Assembly: GCA_028716225.1 (NCBI GenBank)
Contig: JAQUQE010000006.1
Coordinates: 1-64,000 of the forward strand
Direction: 5' to 3'
Length of the DNA stretch: 64,000 nt
DNA from: Dehalococcoidales bacterium
GTDB taxonomy: Bacteria; Chloroflexota; Dehalococcoidia; Dehalococcoidales; UBA5760
In this document: positions 11,491 to 46,259 of the stretch, one piece after another
How the letters are laid out: each line of letters opens with the position of its first letter
Numbering within the stretch: position 1 is the stretch's first letter
The notes under the pieces: model-generated
Told to the model about the DNA's origin: nothing
The model's input: the letters and a program-made list of their open reading frames with translations, nothing else
The model's database searches: none
Made by a program: the position numbers and the translations under genes

Positions 11491-13251
11491 TTAAAAACAC
11501 TGCGACAATCTCTTGATATTCAACAGGTGAGTATAAGTAACGTTATCGGTTGTCGAGGTATGACCAAAGGTGCCGCAACCGAGAGTAAAGGAAGGGGTCA
11601 GTCCGGAACCTATACCGACACACCCGTATGACGCAGGCACGTTTACCAAAAGACGGCTGGCATCGATCTCTTGCCCGAACTTCTTCATCAATTCACGGTT
11701 CTGCGTGTATATCACGGCCGTATGACCAAGCCCCTGATTCTCCAGTATCCGTTTGCACAGCTGCAGACCAGCTTCTTCATCCTCAACGGTAAATAGAGAA
11801 AGAATAGGAGCCAGCTTTTCATGAGCATAGGGACCTTTAAGCTCATCGGTTCTGACCGGCACGACAATCAAACGGATATCCTTATCCTTGCCAATCCCGG
11901 CCCGGTCAGCTATGTACTGGGCAGATTTGCCGACCAACTCTCTTTTCAGGGTTCCGGTATCAACATCAAAAGTCACCGGCGTGAAGCGGGTCTTTTCGTC
12001 TGCCGTTAATACGGCCGCACCATTTGCCTCCAGGTGATGAATAAATTCATCCCGAACTTTGGCAACCACCACCAGATTGTTCTCGGAACCGCATATTACG
12101 CCGTTATCGAATGATTTACTCTTAATGACATTTTGAGCAGATTTAGCGACATCGGCATCGGCACAAATCAACACCGGAGCGTTACCTGAGCCGACTCCTA
12201 TCGCCGGGGTGCCGGAGCTATAGGCAGCTTTGACCATGCTGGAGCCGCCGGTAGCGAGAATCATAGAAACACCGGGGTGATTCATAAACATGACAGTTTT
12301 TTGCCGGCTGCTCCTTTTTAAGACAGGCTGTACCAGATCCACGGGTGCACCGTGCTTTTCCAGAACGCCACGAATGATATCGCAGGTCTTCTTACCTACA
12401 CCCAGCGCATCACGATGACAGCTTAAGATAAGTGAATTTCGTCCTTTTAGACAAATCAATGTTTTGAAAACAATTGTCGATACGGGATTGGTTACCGGAA
12501 TCAGACCGAAGACAACCCCTACCGGACAGGCAATATCATGAACCCGGGCCTCTTTATCACTGAGATAGCCGGCGGCAGGACGACCCGATATCGCCTGACA
12601 TACATCCAGGCTGGCAAAACGGATCTTGGTAACTTTGTCAGCGACAATACCCATTTTGGTCTCAGCGACTGTATCCGTGGCTAATTGCTCGGCATTGTCA
12701 GCGACAGCCCGTGCAATTTCACCTAGTAAAGCATCCACCCTGTCCTGCGTCCACGAAGCAAACTGCTTCAGTGCCTTGGTGGCACGAGCCACGATCTCGT
12801 TAGTGTCCTGGTCTACGTCTCCTGCGAAAATGTAGCCCGCCACTTTATCATTGGCTACCCTGAGTTTCTCAATCAGGTTCTGGCCCATAGTAGTGGCTAT
12901 GGTTAAAGCTATTCTGGGGTATTGCCTACATATCTCATCATAGCTCTGTTTAGAGAAATAACGGGCTTTGACATCGGTATGGGCATAGGCAGTAGCCTCG
13001 CGCGGCTTATTATCAATCAGACTGAACTCGCCCACGAAAACGATGGGCTCCAAGAAGCCTATCACGCTGTCGGTATCTGTCTCGGTATTCCTTACTTCAA
13101 GACGAACCGTACCCTCGTCAATGATGTAACAACCTTCGCCCTTGTCTCCCTGATGCATAATGCAGGTATTCTTGGGAAATTGCACCGGCTCGAGATACTT
13201 TTCCAAGACGCCGCCAAGCTCATCGGCCTTAAGTATGTTCAGAAATGACAT
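11491..13251 (-). CDS. cyclic nucleotide-binding domain fused to CoA-acylating aldehyde dehydrogenase
   Basis: A 586-residue fusion. Residues about 15-125 form a CRP-type cyclic nucleotide-binding domain, with the phosphate-binding cassette visible as GEFSLIDNKPREATAYA (about 74-90, conserved G-E and R). Residues about 145-586 are an aldehyde dehydrogenase of the acylating AdhE/EutE/PduP branch, with GVGSGNAPV, the catalytic C387 in FDNGVICGSENN, and a C-terminal end like that of the AdhE dehydrogenase half. No HTH and no iron-alcohol-dehydrogenase domain are present. Such dehydrogenases interconvert aldehydes and acyl-CoA with NAD. The domain order suggests allosteric control by a nucleotide, which is inference. 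It is the last gene of an operon with three partner-switching proteins. ATG 13251 has AGGGAG about 10 bases upstream. Confidence 0.85.
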   Translation of the reverse strand: MSFLNILKADELGGVLEKYLEPVQFPKNTCIMHQGDKGEGCYIIDEGTVRLEVRNTETDTDSVIGFLEPIVFVGEFSLIDNKPREATAYAHTDVKARYFSKQSYDEICRQYPRIALTIATTMGQNLIEKLRVANDKVAGYIFAGDVDQDTNEIVARATKALKQFASWTQDRVDALLGEIARAVADNAEQLATDTVAETKMGIVADKVTKIRFASLDVCQAISGRPAAGYLSDKEARVHDIACPVGVVFGLIPVTNPVSTIVFKTLICLKGRNSLILSCHRDALGVGKKTCDIIRGVLEKHGAPVDLVQPVLKRSSRQKTVMFMNHPGVSMILATGGSSMVKAAYSSGTPAIGVGSGNAPVLICADADVAKSAQNVIKSKSFDNGVICGSENNLVVVAKVRDEFIHHLEANGAAVLTADEKTRFTPVTFDVDTGTLKRELVGKSAQYIADRAGIGKDKDIRLIVVPVRTDELKGPYAHEKLAPILSLFTVEDEEAGLQLCKRILENQGLGHTAVIYTQNRELMKKFGQEIDASRLLVNVPASYGCVGIGSGLTPSFTLGCGTFGHTSTTDNVTYTHLLNIKRLSQCF

Positions 13252-13276
13252 TATTAATATACTCCCTAAGTATTTA

Positions 13277-13708
13277 TTACACGCCTGTTCGAGTGATACT
13301 TTTTCTCATAGTGAGGCAGTTCCCGGCTGCGCTGTCAAAGCTATAGCTAACCTCATCCATCAGCTTCTTCATAAAATATATCCCCAGACCGCCAATCCTC
13401 CTTTTATCAAGGTCAGCCTCTAAATCCGGCGGCGGGATCGTATCCGGGTCGAAGGGTTTTCCATTATCATTCACACTGACAACCAGACTATCTCCAATCA
13501 ACTCCATTTCCAGCCTGATAAGGCCGGTTTTCTGCCCGTAGGCATACTTTATTACATTGGTGCAGGCTTCGTCCACCGCAAGCTGAACTCTATAGACACT
13601 GGCGGGATCAGCAGCAAACCTTTCCAGTACTTCGTCGACAAAATTTGCAATGACAGGCAGGTTCTCCAACTTACTGTCAATCTCAAGCTCAAATCGTGCT
13701 TTTTTCAT
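13277..13708 (-). CDS. RsbW-like anti-sigma/serine kinase (HATPase)
   Basis: A 143-residue GHKL-type ATPase of the RsbW/SpoIIAB class, which phosphorylates STAS proteins or sequesters a partner such as a sigma factor. The N box is VDEACTNVIKYAYG, the G1 box is VNDNGKPFDP and the G2 box is GGLGIYFMKKLMDEVSY. I start at ATG 13708 (MKKARFELEID) because the longer frame would run back over the STAS gene. It ends 25 bases before the aldehyde dehydrogenase fusion starts and follows the STAS gene by 37 bases. No sigma factor gene is adjacent, so the target is open. Confidence 0.85.
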   Translation of the reverse strand: MKKARFELEIDSKLENLPVIANFVDEVLERFAADPASVYRVQLAVDEACTNVIKYAYGQKTGLIRLEMELIGDSLVVSVNDNGKPFDPDTIPPPDLEADLDKRRIGGLGIYFMKKLMDEVSYSFDSAAGNCLTMRKSITRTGV

Positions 13709-13745
13709 CTTAAGGCCCTTTATATTTATGCTGTTCTTTGAGCCT

Positions 13746-14090
13746 CTATTTTTCTTGCTTGTAGCTGTTGATAGCTTCCTCCGCCTTATCAAACATCTTG
13801 AAGAGCTGGGTAAATCCTGATATTTCAAATATCTCCTTGACGTAGGGCTGGAGGCCTGTCAATATGATATCCCCCTGCTGCTCCCTGGCCTTCTTTAATG
13901 ACCCGAGTAATACTCTTAATCCGGAACTGCTGATGTAATCCAGCTGGCCGAGGTCAACCACCAGACGCACCTTTTCTGCAGCAACCAACGAGTCCAATTT
14001 TCGCTCAATATCACTGGCCGCATACGCATCAAGCCGACCGCCCAAAGCGATTACATTTACCCCCCCGGCAGTTCTTTCTGAAACCTCCAT
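13746..14090 (-). CDS. STAS-domain anti-sigma factor antagonist
   Basis: A 114-residue stand-alone STAS protein of the RsbV/SpoIIAA type. It has VIALGGRLDAYAASDIE near the start and the phosphorylation loop LDYISSSGLRVLLG, where one of the serines should be the kinase target. AGGGGGA lies about 8 bases before ATG 14090, which is preferred over an upstream in-frame start. It sits between the phosphatase and kinase genes, the usual order of a partner-switching module: the phosphorylated form is inactive and the SpoIIE-type phosphatase releases it. Confidence 0.87.
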   Translation of the reverse strand: MEVSERTAGGVNVIALGGRLDAYAASDIERKLDSLVAAEKVRLVVDLGQLDYISSSGLRVLLGSLKKAREQQGDIILTGLQPYVKEIFEISGFTQLFKMFDKAEEAINSYKQEK

Positions 14091-14198
14091 TATCAATGTC
14101 CCCCTTACATATAGATTACTCTGCTGATGTGCCTGATTATATTCTTTTCGCCACCGTCCAATCAATACTCCGGCCGTCTTTCCGTCGGCTCAGCCGAT

Positions 14199-15566
14199 TT
14201 ACAGCGCCTTTAATACCACTAAAGTTAAGTCGTCAAACTGGGGCTGACCAATCGAAAAGTCGACAACCTCACTCTTTACCTTATCGACCAGACTGCTGGC
14301 AGATAAATTGCTGTTCTCTACAACCAAATTGATTAACCTTTCCTGTCCGAACTGTTCCTCTTTTGCGTCGATGGCCTCCGTTACGCCATCGGTATAGAAG
14401 ACCACGGTATCGTTACTGCCCAAGTCCAGCTGTATTTCTTCCAAATTGATATCATCAAGAACGCCTAAAGCTATTCCTTTGGCTCCGAGGAGGATAACGC
14501 CACCGGTATTACCCCTGAACAACAAAGGGGGATTATGGCCGGCATTGACATAGGTGATTCGCCTCTGTTTCAAGTCCAGTAAAGCGTAGAAGAGGGTAAC
14601 AAACATTCCGGATTTAGCGTCATGGTAAATCAACTTATTAGCTATCCGTATAGCTTCGGAGGCTGTGGACACACCCATTGCATTAGCACGGACGCACATG
14701 CGGGATAGGGCCATAAACAAAGCCGCCGGAAACCCTTTCCCGGAGACATCAGCAATTACCAACCCCCACTTATCCCGGTCGATGGGTATAAAATCATAGA
14801 AATCGCCCCCTACCTCCAGTGCAGGCAGGCTGAATGCTCCCAGTTCAAATCCGTCTAAGCGGGGCGTAGATTCCGGCAAAAAACCCTGCTGTATCCGGCG
14901 GGCTGTCTCTATTTCAAACTCTTTACGCTCTAAATCACGGCGGTATTTTTCTTTTTCCGCCGCAGTACGCCTCTCTATGACCAGATTGTGTATAATAAGG
15001 GCGAAGATAGCTACTCCCGCCGCATTAGCCCCGGTCATCGGCACAATCACTTCCTGGACTACTGCCAGAGCCTGATCATACGGCCTGGCCAGCAACAGGG
15101 TTAGACCCATATGAAACAACTCCATCCCGGCAGCAAATATTATCGCCTGCCAAACCCTGGGAAACTCCTTTTTACGCAGCAGGTAAATCACGCCACCCAG
15201 CAAGCCGGCAATAATGGTGGCCAGGGAACAGGGAAGCGCGACAAACCCACCCAGGAAGTAACGGTGTAATCCTCCGATCAGACCTGCCCCCAGCCCGACC
15301 AGCGGTCCACAGAACAACCCCGCAACTATCGGCCCCAGGTCTCTAATGTTGGCAATAGCGCCCGAGGGAAGGGTTATGCCGCCATAGGTACCGAATATGG
15401 ACAGGCCGCCGAATAGTAGAATAGCGATTACCTGGCTTCTAATGTTGAATTGCTTATTCAGTATGTCGCTAAAGAACCTGGTGCGGGTTACGATATAGGC
15501 AAAAACAACTACTACACTCGCAGTCTTAACCAGGTCTATTAATATATCGGAAACCGAAATGCTCAT
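14199..15566 (-). CDS. membrane SpoIIE/RsbU-type phosphatase with LytS-like sensor
   Basis: A 455-residue phosphatase. Residues about 1-195 form several membrane helices of the 5TM-5TMR_LYT type, recognised by IRDLGPIVAGLFCGPLVGLG and GLHRYFLGG. A charged helix that could be coiled coil (about 200-235, RRTAAEKEKYRRDLERKE) leads into a PP2C-like SpoIIE domain with GGDFYDF, IADVSGKGFPAALFM and FYTDGVTEA, whose aspartates bind the catalytic metals. The natural substrate should be the phospho-STAS protein encoded next. I chose ATG 15566, preceded by AGGGTC, over a TTG 48 bases further out that has no ribosome site. It opens the four-gene unit. Confidence 0.88.
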   Translation of the reverse strand: MSISVSDILIDLVKTASVVVVFAYIVTRTRFFSDILNKQFNIRSQVIAILLFGGLSIFGTYGGITLPSGAIANIRDLGPIVAGLFCGPLVGLGAGLIGGLHRYFLGGFVALPCSLATIIAGLLGGVIYLLRKKEFPRVWQAIIFAAGMELFHMGLTLLLARPYDQALAVVQEVIVPMTGANAAGVAIFALIIHNLVIERRTAAEKEKYRRDLERKEFEIETARRIQQGFLPESTPRLDGFELGAFSLPALEVGGDFYDFIPIDRDKWGLVIADVSGKGFPAALFMALSRMCVRANAMGVSTASEAIRIANKLIYHDAKSGMFVTLFYALLDLKQRRITYVNAGHNPPLLFRGNTGGVILLGAKGIALGVLDDINLEEIQLDLGSNDTVVFYTDGVTEAIDAKEEQFGQERLINLVVENSNLSASSLVDKVKSEVVDFSIGQPQFDDLTLVVLKAL

Positions 15567-16251: not shown

Positions 16252-17826
16252 CTACTGCAACAGTCCGGTGAAGTTCAGGGTAAAGACTATCGTACCGCCG
16301 GCATACAACTGCTGATTCGGCGAGGGTGTGATATCTTCCAGTATCCCGGGACCACCGGACCTGTAGTTCAGGGTATAGCTGCCCGCCGGACAGTTGTCGA
16401 AGGTATAGGGCACCGAGCCGTGGGAATCGACGTAAGGCCCGTTCAGAGTGTAGCTGACACTGCCTGCCCAGTCTTCACCGTTAACAGTGGCATTGACTAT
16501 CACGGTACCCCTGGCCTCGGAGTGGAAGTTCAGGGTGTAGGTTATCGTCTCCCCGGCAGCAAGGTTCTGAGTGGGCTGCGGTGAGATGCTGACCAGGGTC
16601 GCCCCGATGGGACCGCCGTCATGGTAGGTGAGAGTGTAGCTACCCGCAGGTAAGCCATCAAAGCTATCCGGCATTGAGGTACTGGAGTCCGTAACCGGTC
16701 CGCCGATGCCGTATCTTATTGTCCCTGAACCCACTGCGGTCTGCCAGGTCTTGCCATCAAGGAGAGCATTGACCTCGATGGTACCGCTGGCCTCGGAATG
16801 GAAGTTCAGGGTGAAGGTTATGGTATGACCGGACGATACCGTCTGGGTAGGTGAGGGAGAGATATCGGACAGGGTCGCTCCGGAAGGACCGCCCGAACGA
16901 TAGGAAATGGTATAGGTACCATCGGGCAGGTTGGTCAGCGTCTGCGGCACCGAAGTATCGGCATCCGAGTACGGCCCGCTGATGTTATAGCGGACAGCCC
17001 CGCTCCACGACTCACCGTCAAGGGTCGCCTTGATCTTTATTGTGCTAGCTGCCTGCGAGACGAAGTTCATAGTGAAGGTGGTCGTACTATCAGCCGAGGT
17101 AGTCTGGGTCGGCTGCGGGGTGATACTGATCAGGGTTGCCTCGGAAGGACCGCCGTGGTTGTAGACCAGGGTATAGGTCCCCGCCGGCAGGTTGTTAAAG
17201 GTCTCGGATACCGAGTTATTCGAGTCGGAAACCGGTCCGTTCAGGGTGTAGTCTACATTCCCCGTCCAGCTCGAGCCGTCAAGGGTCGCCTTGACCTTGA
17301 TGGTACTGGTGCTTTCGGAGTGGAAGTTGAGGGTGAAGGTGGTGGTATGTCCCGCAACCACGGACTGGGTCGGCTGCGGGGTGATGCTGGACAGGGTCGC
17401 TCCGGAAGGACCGCCTGCATTGTAGCCTACCGTATAGCTGCCGGCAGCGATATTGCTGAAAGTCTGGGCCACCGAGGACCCGGAATATCCCTGGGGCCCG
17501 GTGATGGTATAGTTGACCTTTCCCGCCCAGGAGGCACCGTCAAGAGTAGCATTTACCACCAGCGTCGTGACGGCCTCGGTCTCAAAATTGAGGGTGAAGG
17601 TTACCGTACCGCCATCGGACAGCGTCTGCACCGAGACCGGCGTAACATCGGAGAAGGTCGCCCCGGACGGACCACCCGAGCTGTAGCCCAGAGTATAGCT
17701 CCCAACAGGTGCGTTGCTGAACGTCTGGGTCGCCGAGGACCCGGAATAGGTCTGCGGGCCGCTTAAGGTATAGTTGACTCCCCCCGTCCAGGTGGCACCG
17801 TCAAGAGTAGCATTGACCACTATCGT
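16252..17826 (-). repeat. six tandem coding repeats of about 260 bp
   Basis: The 3' four-fifths of the lipoprotein gene is built of six in-frame units. Units 1-4 and 6 are similar in length; unit 5 has a short insertion (TAVGSGT) and unit 6 has lost part of the GGPSGATL block. Divergence between units shows an old expansion. Confidence 0.8.
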
Positions 17827-18234
17827 GCCAACACCGGGCTCCGGCGGCGTCGGCGAAGCCCCCGGCGTCTGGAAGGCCCAGGCCTCCGTCCATGCCGAGG
17901 TCCGGCCGCCCTTGCTGGCATTTACCTTCCAGTAGTAGGTCTGGCCTTCGGCCAGCTTTCCGCTGGCTACGGTGTAGCTGGGACCGGCCAGATTCGATTC
18001 ATCGATAATCAAGTCCTGGAAGTTGCCGTGCTGCGATACCTGGAGTCGATAGGTAGCATCGGAATAATTACAGTTCCAGGCCAGTATCGGCGTCAGTGAT
18101 GAGACCGTACTACCGTTAGTCGGCGTCTCCAGGGTAACCGTTAACGCAACCCCCTCGCTGCAGCCGGAAAGGCCGAGCAGCCCCACCAGCAACACCAGCA
18201 AAAAGGCGGCGTACTTCCTGTACTTTTTAAACAT
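16252..18234 (-). CDS. repeat-containing surface lipoprotein with fibronectin III-like domain
   Basis: A 660-residue lipoprotein. A signal peptide ends in the lipobox GLSGC (Cys at about 25). Residues about 28-123 look like a fibronectin type III-like module (TPILAWNCNYSDATYRLQVS, YYWKVNASKGG), followed by a Pro-rich spacer. Residues about 137-660 are six tandem repeats of roughly 86 residues, each opening like TIVVNATLDGATW, with Y-T-L-x-G-P in the middle, a GGPSGATL block and an ending like FTLNFHSE. The repeats are probably beta-sandwich units that hold something away from the membrane. No catalytic motif is visible. GGGAGAAG precedes ATG 18234. Confidence 0.8.
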   Translation of the reverse strand: MFKKYRKYAAFLLVLLVGLLGLSGCSEGVALTVTLETPTNGSTVSSLTPILAWNCNYSDATYRLQVSQHGNFQDLIIDESNLAGPSYTVASGKLAEGQTYYWKVNASKGGRTSAWTEAWAFQTPGASPTPPEPGVGTIVVNATLDGATWTGGVNYTLSGPQTYSGSSATQTFSNAPVGSYTLGYSSGGPSGATFSDVTPVSVQTLSDGGTVTFTLNFETEAVTTLVVNATLDGASWAGKVNYTITGPQGYSGSSVAQTFSNIAAGSYTVGYNAGGPSGATLSSITPQPTQSVVAGHTTTFTLNFHSESTSTIKVKATLDGSSWTGNVDYTLNGPVSDSNNSVSETFNNLPAGTYTLVYNHGGPSEATLISITPQPTQTTSADSTTTFTMNFVSQAASTIKIKATLDGESWSGAVRYNISGPYSDADTSVPQTLTNLPDGTYTISYRSGGPSGATLSDISPSPTQTVSSGHTITFTLNFHSEASGTIEVNALLDGKTWQTAVGSGTIRYGIGGPVTDSSTSMPDSFDGLPAGSYTLTYHDGGPIGATLVSISPQPTQNLAAGETITYTLNFHSEARGTVIVNATVNGEDWAGSVSYTLNGPYVDSHGSVPYTFDNCPAGSYTLNYRSGGPGILEDITPSPNQQLYAGGTIVFTLNFTGLLQ

Positions 18235-18448
18235 TCTCACTTCTCCCTCCCGCAGCCATTTTCTCTCTCCTACGCTTATCCGCAACCAACTCAAAAGAAA
18301 ATGGACCAGTTTATTTTGACATTTATTATATCACGGACTGTCAATGCTATTTCCGGAGAAAGCCTCCGGGAGCTCCCTGATATTTTACAACAGGGAGGCT
18401 AAACATTTTCTAAACATCTTCGCTGGCAGCACCCGAAACGAGGGACTG

Positions 18449-40432: not shown

Positions 40433-40963
40433 ATGAAGACGAAGGAGCGCCTGGCCAGGGGATATATCCAGGTCTATACCGGGGAGGGCAAGGGGAAGAC
40501 CACCGCCGCCCTCGGGCTGGCCTTAAGGGCAGCAGGGCGGGGGATGCGGGTAGTCTTCATCCAGTTTCTCAAGGGAGAGACCTCGGGCGAACAGATCCTT
40601 GCCGCCGGATACCACCTCTTCGAAATCATCCGGCCGAACCAGGGCATCTGCCTCCGGCATGGTAACGAAGAACTCCGTCCGGTAACCGAGCAAACGCTCT
40701 CTCTCGCCGAAGAGAAGCTCACTAAAGGGAAGTACGATATCATCGTCCTGGACGAGATTTTCACGGCGGTGAACAGAGGGCTGATCACCACCGCCCGGGT
40801 CATCGACCTGCTGGATAAGAAGCCGGTTAACGTCGAGCTGGTGCTGACCGGGCGTAAGGCGCCCCCGGAGATAATCGAGCGGGCCGACCTGGTCACTAAT
40901 ATGACTGCAGTGAAGCACTATTTCAGTAAAGGGATCAGGGGGCGCAAGGGCATTGAGTACTGA
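40433..40963 (+). CDS. cobO: cob(I)alamin adenosyltransferase, CobA/CobO type
   Basis: A 176-residue P-loop enzyme that transfers the adenosyl group of ATP to cob(I)alamin or cobinamide. The ATP loop is GEGKGKTTAALGLALRAAG, with VVFIQFLKGE and DIIVLDEIFTAVNRGLI after it and LTGRKAPPEIIERADLVTNM near the end. A close paralogue with the same blocks is encoded at 45726-46259. It starts 4 bases after the previous gene. Confidence 0.94.
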   Translation: MKTKERLARGYIQVYTGEGKGKTTAALGLALRAAGRGMRVVFIQFLKGETSGEQILAAGYHLFEIIRPNQGICLRHGNEELRPVTEQTLSLAEEKLTKGKYDIIVLDEIFTAVNRGLITTARVIDLLDKKPVNVELVLTGRKAPPEIIERADLVTNMTAVKHYFSKGIRGRKGIEY

Positions 40964-45725: not shown

Positions 45726-46259
45726 TCAGCGCTCGATACCATCCCGGGCGGTAACCCCTGCCTCACTGTAGTGCTTCACCTCTCTCATCTCGGTGACCAG
45801 ATCGGCGGCGGCGATAAGCTCGGGGGGCGCATAGCGACCGGTGAAGACCACCTCTACCCCCTCCGGTCTGGAACGGATTACTTCCAGCATCTCGTCAAGC
45901 GATACCAGGTGAAAATAGTGGCTGGTAATAATCTCATCGAAGATGATGATGTCATATTGCCCGGAGCACATCACCCCCATGGCCAATGACAAGCCCTTCT
46001 GAGCCATCCGGACGTCCTCTTCCCGGGGCGGGTCCTGGACATGAATGAAGGTGTCCTTACCGTACTGCTCGATGGTGATAAAGGGCCGCAGCTTTTTCAC
46101 CCCATCCAGCTCGCCGTAGTGCTGTCCCTTCATAAACTGCCCGATATACGTCTTTAAACCCCAGCCGGCCGCCCTCAGGGCAAGCCCCAGGGCAGCGGTA
46201 GTCTTCCCTTTACCGTTCCCGGTATAGACCTGAACATAACCTTTACCGAGAGAAGCCAT
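45726..46259 (-). CDS. cobO: second cob(I)alamin adenosyltransferase (CobA/CobO paralogue)
   Basis: A 177-residue paralogue of the enzyme at 40433, with GNGKGKTTAALGLALRAAGW, GQFMKGQHYGELDG, DIIIFDEIITSHYFHLVSL and FTGRYAPPELIAAADLVTEM. It carries an EQYGKDTFIHVQDP stretch typical of stand-alone copies. The gene begins 2 bases after the winged-helix regulator, so the regulator and the enzyme are one unit. Two copies may serve cobinamide salvage and repair of inactive cofactor, or answer to different signals. Confidence 0.92.
   Translation of the reverse strand: MASLGKGYVQVYTGNGKGKTTAALGLALRAAGWGLKTYIGQFMKGQHYGELDGVKKLRPFITIEQYGKDTFIHVQDPPREEDVRMAQKGLSLAMGVMCSGQYDIIIFDEIITSHYFHLVSLDEMLEVIRSRPEGVEVVFTGRYAPPELIAAADLVTEMREVKHYSEAGVTARDGIER

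Follow-up and report, generated by a model that had tools for sequence, protein, structure and literature searches.

We analyzed a window of 64,000 nucleotides from the genome of an anaerobic and little-studied Dehalococcoidales bacterium (G000; assembly of 2.64 Mb, 96% complete) and focused on a minus-strand operon of four genes, encoding a membrane SpoIIE phosphatase, a STAS protein, an RsbW-type kinase, and an enzyme in which a cyclic nucleotide-binding (CNB) domain is fused to a coenzyme A (CoA)-acylating aldehyde dehydrogenase (ALDH). By analogy with SiaABC–SiaD, we propose with roughly even confidence that this operon is a complete partner switch without a sigma factor, and that its output would be the co-encoded CNB-ALDH enzyme. 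An earlier note made from the sequence of the window had suggested that the switch acts on metabolism. The association of operon and enzyme now goes beyond chance, because the only SpoIIE, STAS and true RsbW proteins of the genome are encoded here, no group-3 sigma factor was found, and the module adjoins acyl-CoA enzymes in two more lineages; the contact between switch and enzyme stays a prediction.

SpoIIE and STAS were each matched once in the window genome, both times in the operon, which also holds the single strong HATPase_c_2 match (9e-33). The remaining HATPase_c_2 matches are at 1e-6 or weaker and fall in long histidine-kinase-like frames. A Sigma70_r2 search of the same assembly identified one RpoD-type frame of 477 amino acids and four ECF-sized frames of 184-217 amino acids, and found no group-3 (SigB/SigF-like) sigma factor. 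There is likewise no sigma-factor gene inside the cluster or adjoining it, as the earlier note had observed, and the pairing of the three regulators with a sigma factor encoded elsewhere, which that note had considered, was not found in the window genome. Thus, a complete partner switch without an obvious sigma partner adjoins the enzyme gene.

Relatives of the SpoIIE/STAS/RsbW module were identified by a class-wide search with the window 5TM sensor as the query, which recovered 5TM-SpoIIE genes in three genomes (G144, G390 and G381). A fourth copy, in G332, is cut, STAS being followed there by the sensor and the contig end. In G144, one strand carries STAS, a thiamine pyrophosphate (TPP) enzyme, 5TM-SpoIIE, RsbW and two CoA-transferases in this order; the genes of STAS and the TPP enzyme overlap by 4 bases, as do those of RsbW and the CoA-transferase in its longest reading. 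The TPP enzyme (L130:4632-6353) is acetolactate-synthase-like, and an in-frame TAG splits its N and M parts from its C part. The order in G390 is STAS, 5TM-SpoIIE, RsbW and two CoA-transferases. These CoA-transferases are nearest to butyryl-CoA:acetate CoA-transferase, below the cut-off. The kinases of the relatives are 48-56% identical to the window protein, and their STAS proteins 50-62%. Enzyme genes therefore adjoin or interleave with the module in three lineages (window, G144, G390), and no sigma gene was found beside it in the stretches read from any lineage; these two observations together are the chief reason for proposing a metabolic output. The position of the module beside acyl-CoA enzymes points to direct control of metabolism by the switch.

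Two further features were noted at these loci. A STAS family with a conserved C-terminal region of about 320 amino acids and no Pfam match is represented at L130:2768-4141 and L057:493-1818, the former gene being divergent beside the partner-switch operon of G144. A PFL2-3-type glycyl radical enzyme and its activase (L131:651-4202) are divergent to the partner-switch/CoA-transferase operon of G390.

The four window genes lie in series in the order SpoIIE, STAS, RsbW and CNB-ALDH fusion, with intergenic gaps of 108, 37 and 25 bases. Domains were called with Pfam and NCBIfam profiles, applying the NCBIfam equivalog cut-offs, and Pfam matched all of them (Table 1); gene order, strand, gaps and the four protein types are thereby as the earlier note had given them. 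The SpoIIE domain keeps the metal-binding Asp motifs of PP2C phosphatases (GGDFYDF, DVSGKG, YTDGVTEA, FDDLT), and its structure matches are RssB-type and SpoIIE structures. The STAS protein scores above the cut-off of TIGR00377 (anti-sigma-factor antagonist in NCBIfam), and its phosphorylatable serine motif ISSSGLR (residues 53-59) aligns with MDSSGLG of SpoIIAA. The kinase, for which the nearest NCBIfam profile is RsbW, keeps the N-box DEACTN and the G-boxes DNGKPFDP and GGLGIYFM, and aligns with RsbW 6m36.

A congener of the window genome (G007, a Dehalococcoidales metagenome-assembled genome (MAG), contig JAQUOC010000079.1) possesses the four genes of the window operon in unchanged order. 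Codon comparison of the two shows purifying selection on each of the genes, and the catalytic and binding motifs are intact. The dN/dS ratio is 0.12 for SpoIIE (dN 0.027, dS 0.223), 0.22 for STAS (dN 0.035, dS 0.158), 0.32 for RsbW (dN 0.069, dS 0.215), which is the fastest-changing of the four, and 0.07 for the whole fusion (dN 0.014, dS 0.193). The CNB portion of the fusion is the most constrained of all (0.03; dN 0.006, dS 0.210), and the ALDH part has a ratio of 0.09 (dN 0.016, dS 0.189). Promoter and terminator scans of the operon returned nothing exceeding chance, including the promoter-like match in the gap downstream of SpoIIE; hence STAS, RsbW and the fusion may or may not own a separate promoter.

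Table 1. Features of the partner-switch operon and its fusion enzyme in the window (genes, domains and motifs in order of position)
Feature	Position	Strand	Evidence or remark
CNB-ALDH fusion, 586 aa	11491..13251	-	Pfam cNMP_binding 4.1e-17 and Aldedh 1.1e-26
CoA-acylating ALDH, C-terminal, residues about 148-583	11503-12810	-	
Codon of Cys387	12091..12093	-	corresponds in the alignment to the catalytic Cys (FDNGVIC) of AdhE-type acylating ALDHs
CNB domain, N-terminal, residues 23-111	12919-13185	-	
Phosphate-binding cassette GEFSLIDNKPREAT, residues 74-87	12991..13032	-	Glu and Arg retained, as in cAMP-binding CNB domains
RsbW-type serine kinase, 143 aa	13277..13708	-	HATPase_c_2 (PF13581) 4.9e-33
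STAS protein, 114 aa, anti-sigma-antagonist type	13746..14090	-	Pfam STAS 8.9e-22
Three serines of the STAS motif ISSSGLR	13923-13931	-	
SpoIIE-STAS intergenic gap, 108 bases	14091..14198	-	promoter-like TTGATT-18-TATAAT at 14165-14136
Membrane phosphatase, 455 aa: 5TM-5TMR_LYT sensor and SpoIIE/PP2C domain	14199..15566	-	Pfam, motifs
SpoIIE/PP2C catalytic domain, residues 264-453	14208-14777	-	Pfam 5.6e-48
5TM-5TMR_LYT sensor, residues 30-194	14985-15479	-	Pfam 1.9e-48

The CNB part of the fusion is matched by the profile NF058543. Its cassette GEFSLIDNKPREAT aligns with that of PKA RIalpha, and the GE and PR residues are conserved across the other full-length fusions. The best solved structures matching this part are PKA regulatory subunits; the CRP-type ligand domain of the earlier note therefore holds as a CNB fold, but not as the nearest solved relative. 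The ALDH part aligns over its full length with 3k9d (309 bits) and with AdhE 6tqh (307 bits). The nearest NCBIfam models are AdhE NF010378 (463 bits versus a cut-off of 951) and the acetylating ALDH TIGR02518 (402 bits versus 620), and the fusion passes no curated equivalog cut-off. An ordinary AdhE was ruled out, as the protein lacks the iron-containing alcohol dehydrogenase (Fe-ADH) half and scores under the cut-off; a transcription factor was ruled out by the lack of a DNA-binding domain. An AlphaFold2 model of the fusion built from a three-row alignment (pLDDT, the predicted local distance difference test, of 33) was discarded.

Among 393 genomes drawn evenly from the class, three have fusion genes (G000, G159 and G167); the congener G007 and a Chloroflexota MAG (G426, locus L033, contig JAUVWD010000018.1) raise the total to five. 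Sampling 400 genomes from the phylum gave no further CNB fusion among many AdhE-like ALDHs, and order-level searches around G159 and G167 gave no additional ones. A contig scan with two narrow peptide patterns, which does not bound the spread of the fusion, returned only two loci. The nearest unfused ALDHs (G571 and G647) match at 52% over the ALDH part and have an unrelated N-terminus. In the IQ-TREE phylogeny, a single clade (98/96) unites the five fusions, with G571/G647 beside it, and splits into a cyclase-adjacent subclade of G159 and G426 (87/75) and a partner-switch-adjacent subclade of G167, G000 and G007 (92/95). The context of the fusion thus follows the clade, the pattern expected from a single change of wiring. 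The earlier note had considered whether the regulators co-occur with such fusions in other genomes: the fusion proved rare rather than widespread, but one subclade has a cyclase and no partner-switch genes.

In G159, a CHASE2-class III cyclase is located directly upstream of the fusion on the same strand, with a 49-base gap, and in G426 a CHASE2-cyclase (L033:6770-8590), in which an in-frame TAA interrupts the CHASE2 domain, adjoins the fusion in convergent orientation. Both cyclases have Lys and Thr/Ser at positions that we take to be associated with adenylyl cyclases. Class III cyclases (PF00211) were matched in G159, G167 and G426, and a search restricted to this class gave no match in G000 or G007. 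Also near the fusion of G159, and convergent with it, are ACT-domain and 2-oxoacid:ferredoxin oxidoreductase subunit-like genes (L027:11594-14406, by inspection), a possible source of acyl-CoA.

In G159 (contig C4, L106:6759-8528), a 5TM domain with 71% identity to the window sensor is joined to a class III cyclase and followed by a stand-alone CNB gene, forming a compact sensor-cyclase-effector pair. In a tree of the sensors, the copy with the cyclase groups with those linked to SpoIIE (96/98), apart from stand-alone 5TM proteins. Hence one input domain exists with both cAMP-type and SpoIIE outputs. Control of the cAMP type was probably the earlier, or a parallel, function of the CNB domain, and the partner switch of the window genus may have taken over from the cyclase or been added to it. 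A broader reading, which we put forward only tentatively and consider rather less than probable, is that one sensor family in the Dehalococcoidia is wired to acyl-CoA enzymes by two interchangeable routes, either cAMP/CNB or a direct partner switch without a sigma factor, and that the window genome lost its class III cyclases and relies on the partner switch in their place, the CNB domain being left perhaps as a docking or second-input site.

Under the proposed mechanism, the membrane 5TM (LytS-type) sensor would set the activity of the SpoIIE phosphatase, which would dephosphorylate STAS and so counter the RsbW-type kinase. Either free STAS, or the kinase released from STAS, would then bind the CNB-ALDH fusion and set its activity, in a direction that could be positive or negative. 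An envelope or extracellular signal would in this manner gate the conversion of an acyl-CoA, probably acetyl-CoA, to the aldehyde, or the reverse reaction. The CNB domain would act as an intact second input, presumably for a cyclic nucleotide in the manner of mycobacterial Pat, or as the docking site in the window genus.

Several observations weigh against an enzymatic output of the switch. Co-regulated operon neighbors can do without physical contact. The fusion occurs in only four independent lineages, and SpoIIE was not found in the genomes of G159 or G426. In G167, the fusion is frameshifted near codon 160 and is followed downstream, at the contig end, by a STAS gene, the only partner-switch gene seen there apart from a second, truncated STAS reading between the two; searches of this genome gave neither SpoIIE nor a strong RsbW match. 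The G167 fusion may be decaying along with its module, or may have been cut by assembly. In G381, SpoIIE and RsbW are followed by a nitroreductase-like gene (by inspection) on the opposite strand, and the other side is a contig end. Finally, the relatives represent few lineages and are known from metagenome assemblies with frame breaks.

As the main alternative, the kinase may instead bind RpoD, much as chlamydial RsbW binds sigma66, the primary sigma factor (PMC4552016), or one of the ECF-sized factors, the fusion then being no more than part of the operon or regulon. The genome offers RpoD and the four short factors as candidate targets, and the NCBIfam names of the kinase and of the STAS protein are those of anti-sigma systems. 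However, the genome search returned no group-3 factor, no sigma gene adjoins the module in the lineages read, enzyme genes recur beside and within it, and each of the three ECF genes read is followed by a gene of its own that likely encodes a membrane segment (by inspection), a usual arrangement for ECF factors and their anti-sigma factors; we regard an anti-sigma output as unlikely. Control of the fusion by its cyclic-nucleotide ligand alone, with the partner-switch genes as unrelated neighbors in one genus, would agree with the intact binding cassette, the strong constraint on the CNB part and the cyclases adjoining the fusion in two relatives, one of them directly upstream. It is harder to reconcile with the lack of a class III cyclase match in the window genome and its congener, with the STAS gene that again adjoins the fusion in G167, and with modules adjoining CoA enzymes that have no CNB domain, and we judge it improbable. 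We give still less credence, and in fact very little, to phosphorylation of the enzyme as a substrate of the kinase in place of stoichiometric binding by STAS or kinase: the kinase motifs are intact and the kinase-fusion gap is the smallest of the three, but the RsbW-type kinases known so far act specifically on STAS-type partners, and RsbW changes fastest among the four genes.

Two other observations concern the rest of the window. An apparent lipoprotein of 680 amino acids (16252-18294, minus strand), with about six repeats of a unit of about 80 amino acids (..TLDGASWTGGVNYTLSGP..), is encoded next but one upstream of the operon. Two similar cob(I)alamin adenosyltransferase-like genes (40433-40963 and 45726-46259) are located near apparent cobalamin-synthesis genes (by inspection).

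Partner switches are usually taken as controllers of sigma factors, and the known direct enzyme outputs named below are diguanylate cyclases. Should the module prove a regular companion of acyl-CoA enzymes, the control of central metabolism at the post-translational level would be a second general output. The two fusion subclades form a natural pair, with one enzyme wired in either of two ways (cyclase or partner switch), and lend themselves to tests with purified proteins.

In SiaABCD of Pseudomonas aeruginosa, as in HsbA-HsbD and BgrV-BgrR, the output involves no sigma factor: the activity of a co-encoded enzyme is regulated, through direct binding, by a kinase, a STAS-like protein and a phosphatase of the SpoIIE type; unphosphorylated SiaC binds and activates the co-transcribed SiaD directly, the other two systems act alike, and SiaC, HsbA and BgrV each control a diguanylate cyclase (PMC8457831). 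An enzyme is co-encoded with the module in the same way in the window operon, G007, G144 and G390. The systems differ in that the enzyme of SiaABCD is a diguanylate cyclase, whereas that of the window is a CoA-acylating ALDH with its own CNB domain (CoA-transferases in the relatives), for which binding is predicted; moreover, SiaC belongs to DUF1987 and its window counterpart is a STAS protein. The RsbU-RsbV-RsbW and SpoIIE-SpoIIAA-SpoIIAB systems of Bacillus have all three families and their catalytic and phosphorylation motifs in common with the window, but the window operon lacks a sigma factor of the SigB/SigF type, and none was found in the genome. The mycobacterial lysine acetyltransferase Pat/KATms has an N-terminal CNB domain and is activated by cAMP (PMC5861322). 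Like the window fusion, it joins an N-terminal CNB domain to an enzyme, but its catalytic domain is GNAT rather than ALDH, and no partner-switch neighbors are described for it. The N-terminal domain of AdhE, EutE and SauS match the window ALDH over its full length with the catalytic Cys aligned; the window fusion differs from them by the CNB domain in front, the lack of an Fe-ADH half and a score below every equivalog cut-off. Enzyme-output partner switches and CNB-enzyme fusions are each already known; the open-access literature, as far as it was searched, gave no description of a CNB-ALDH fusion or of partner switches beside CoA enzymes.

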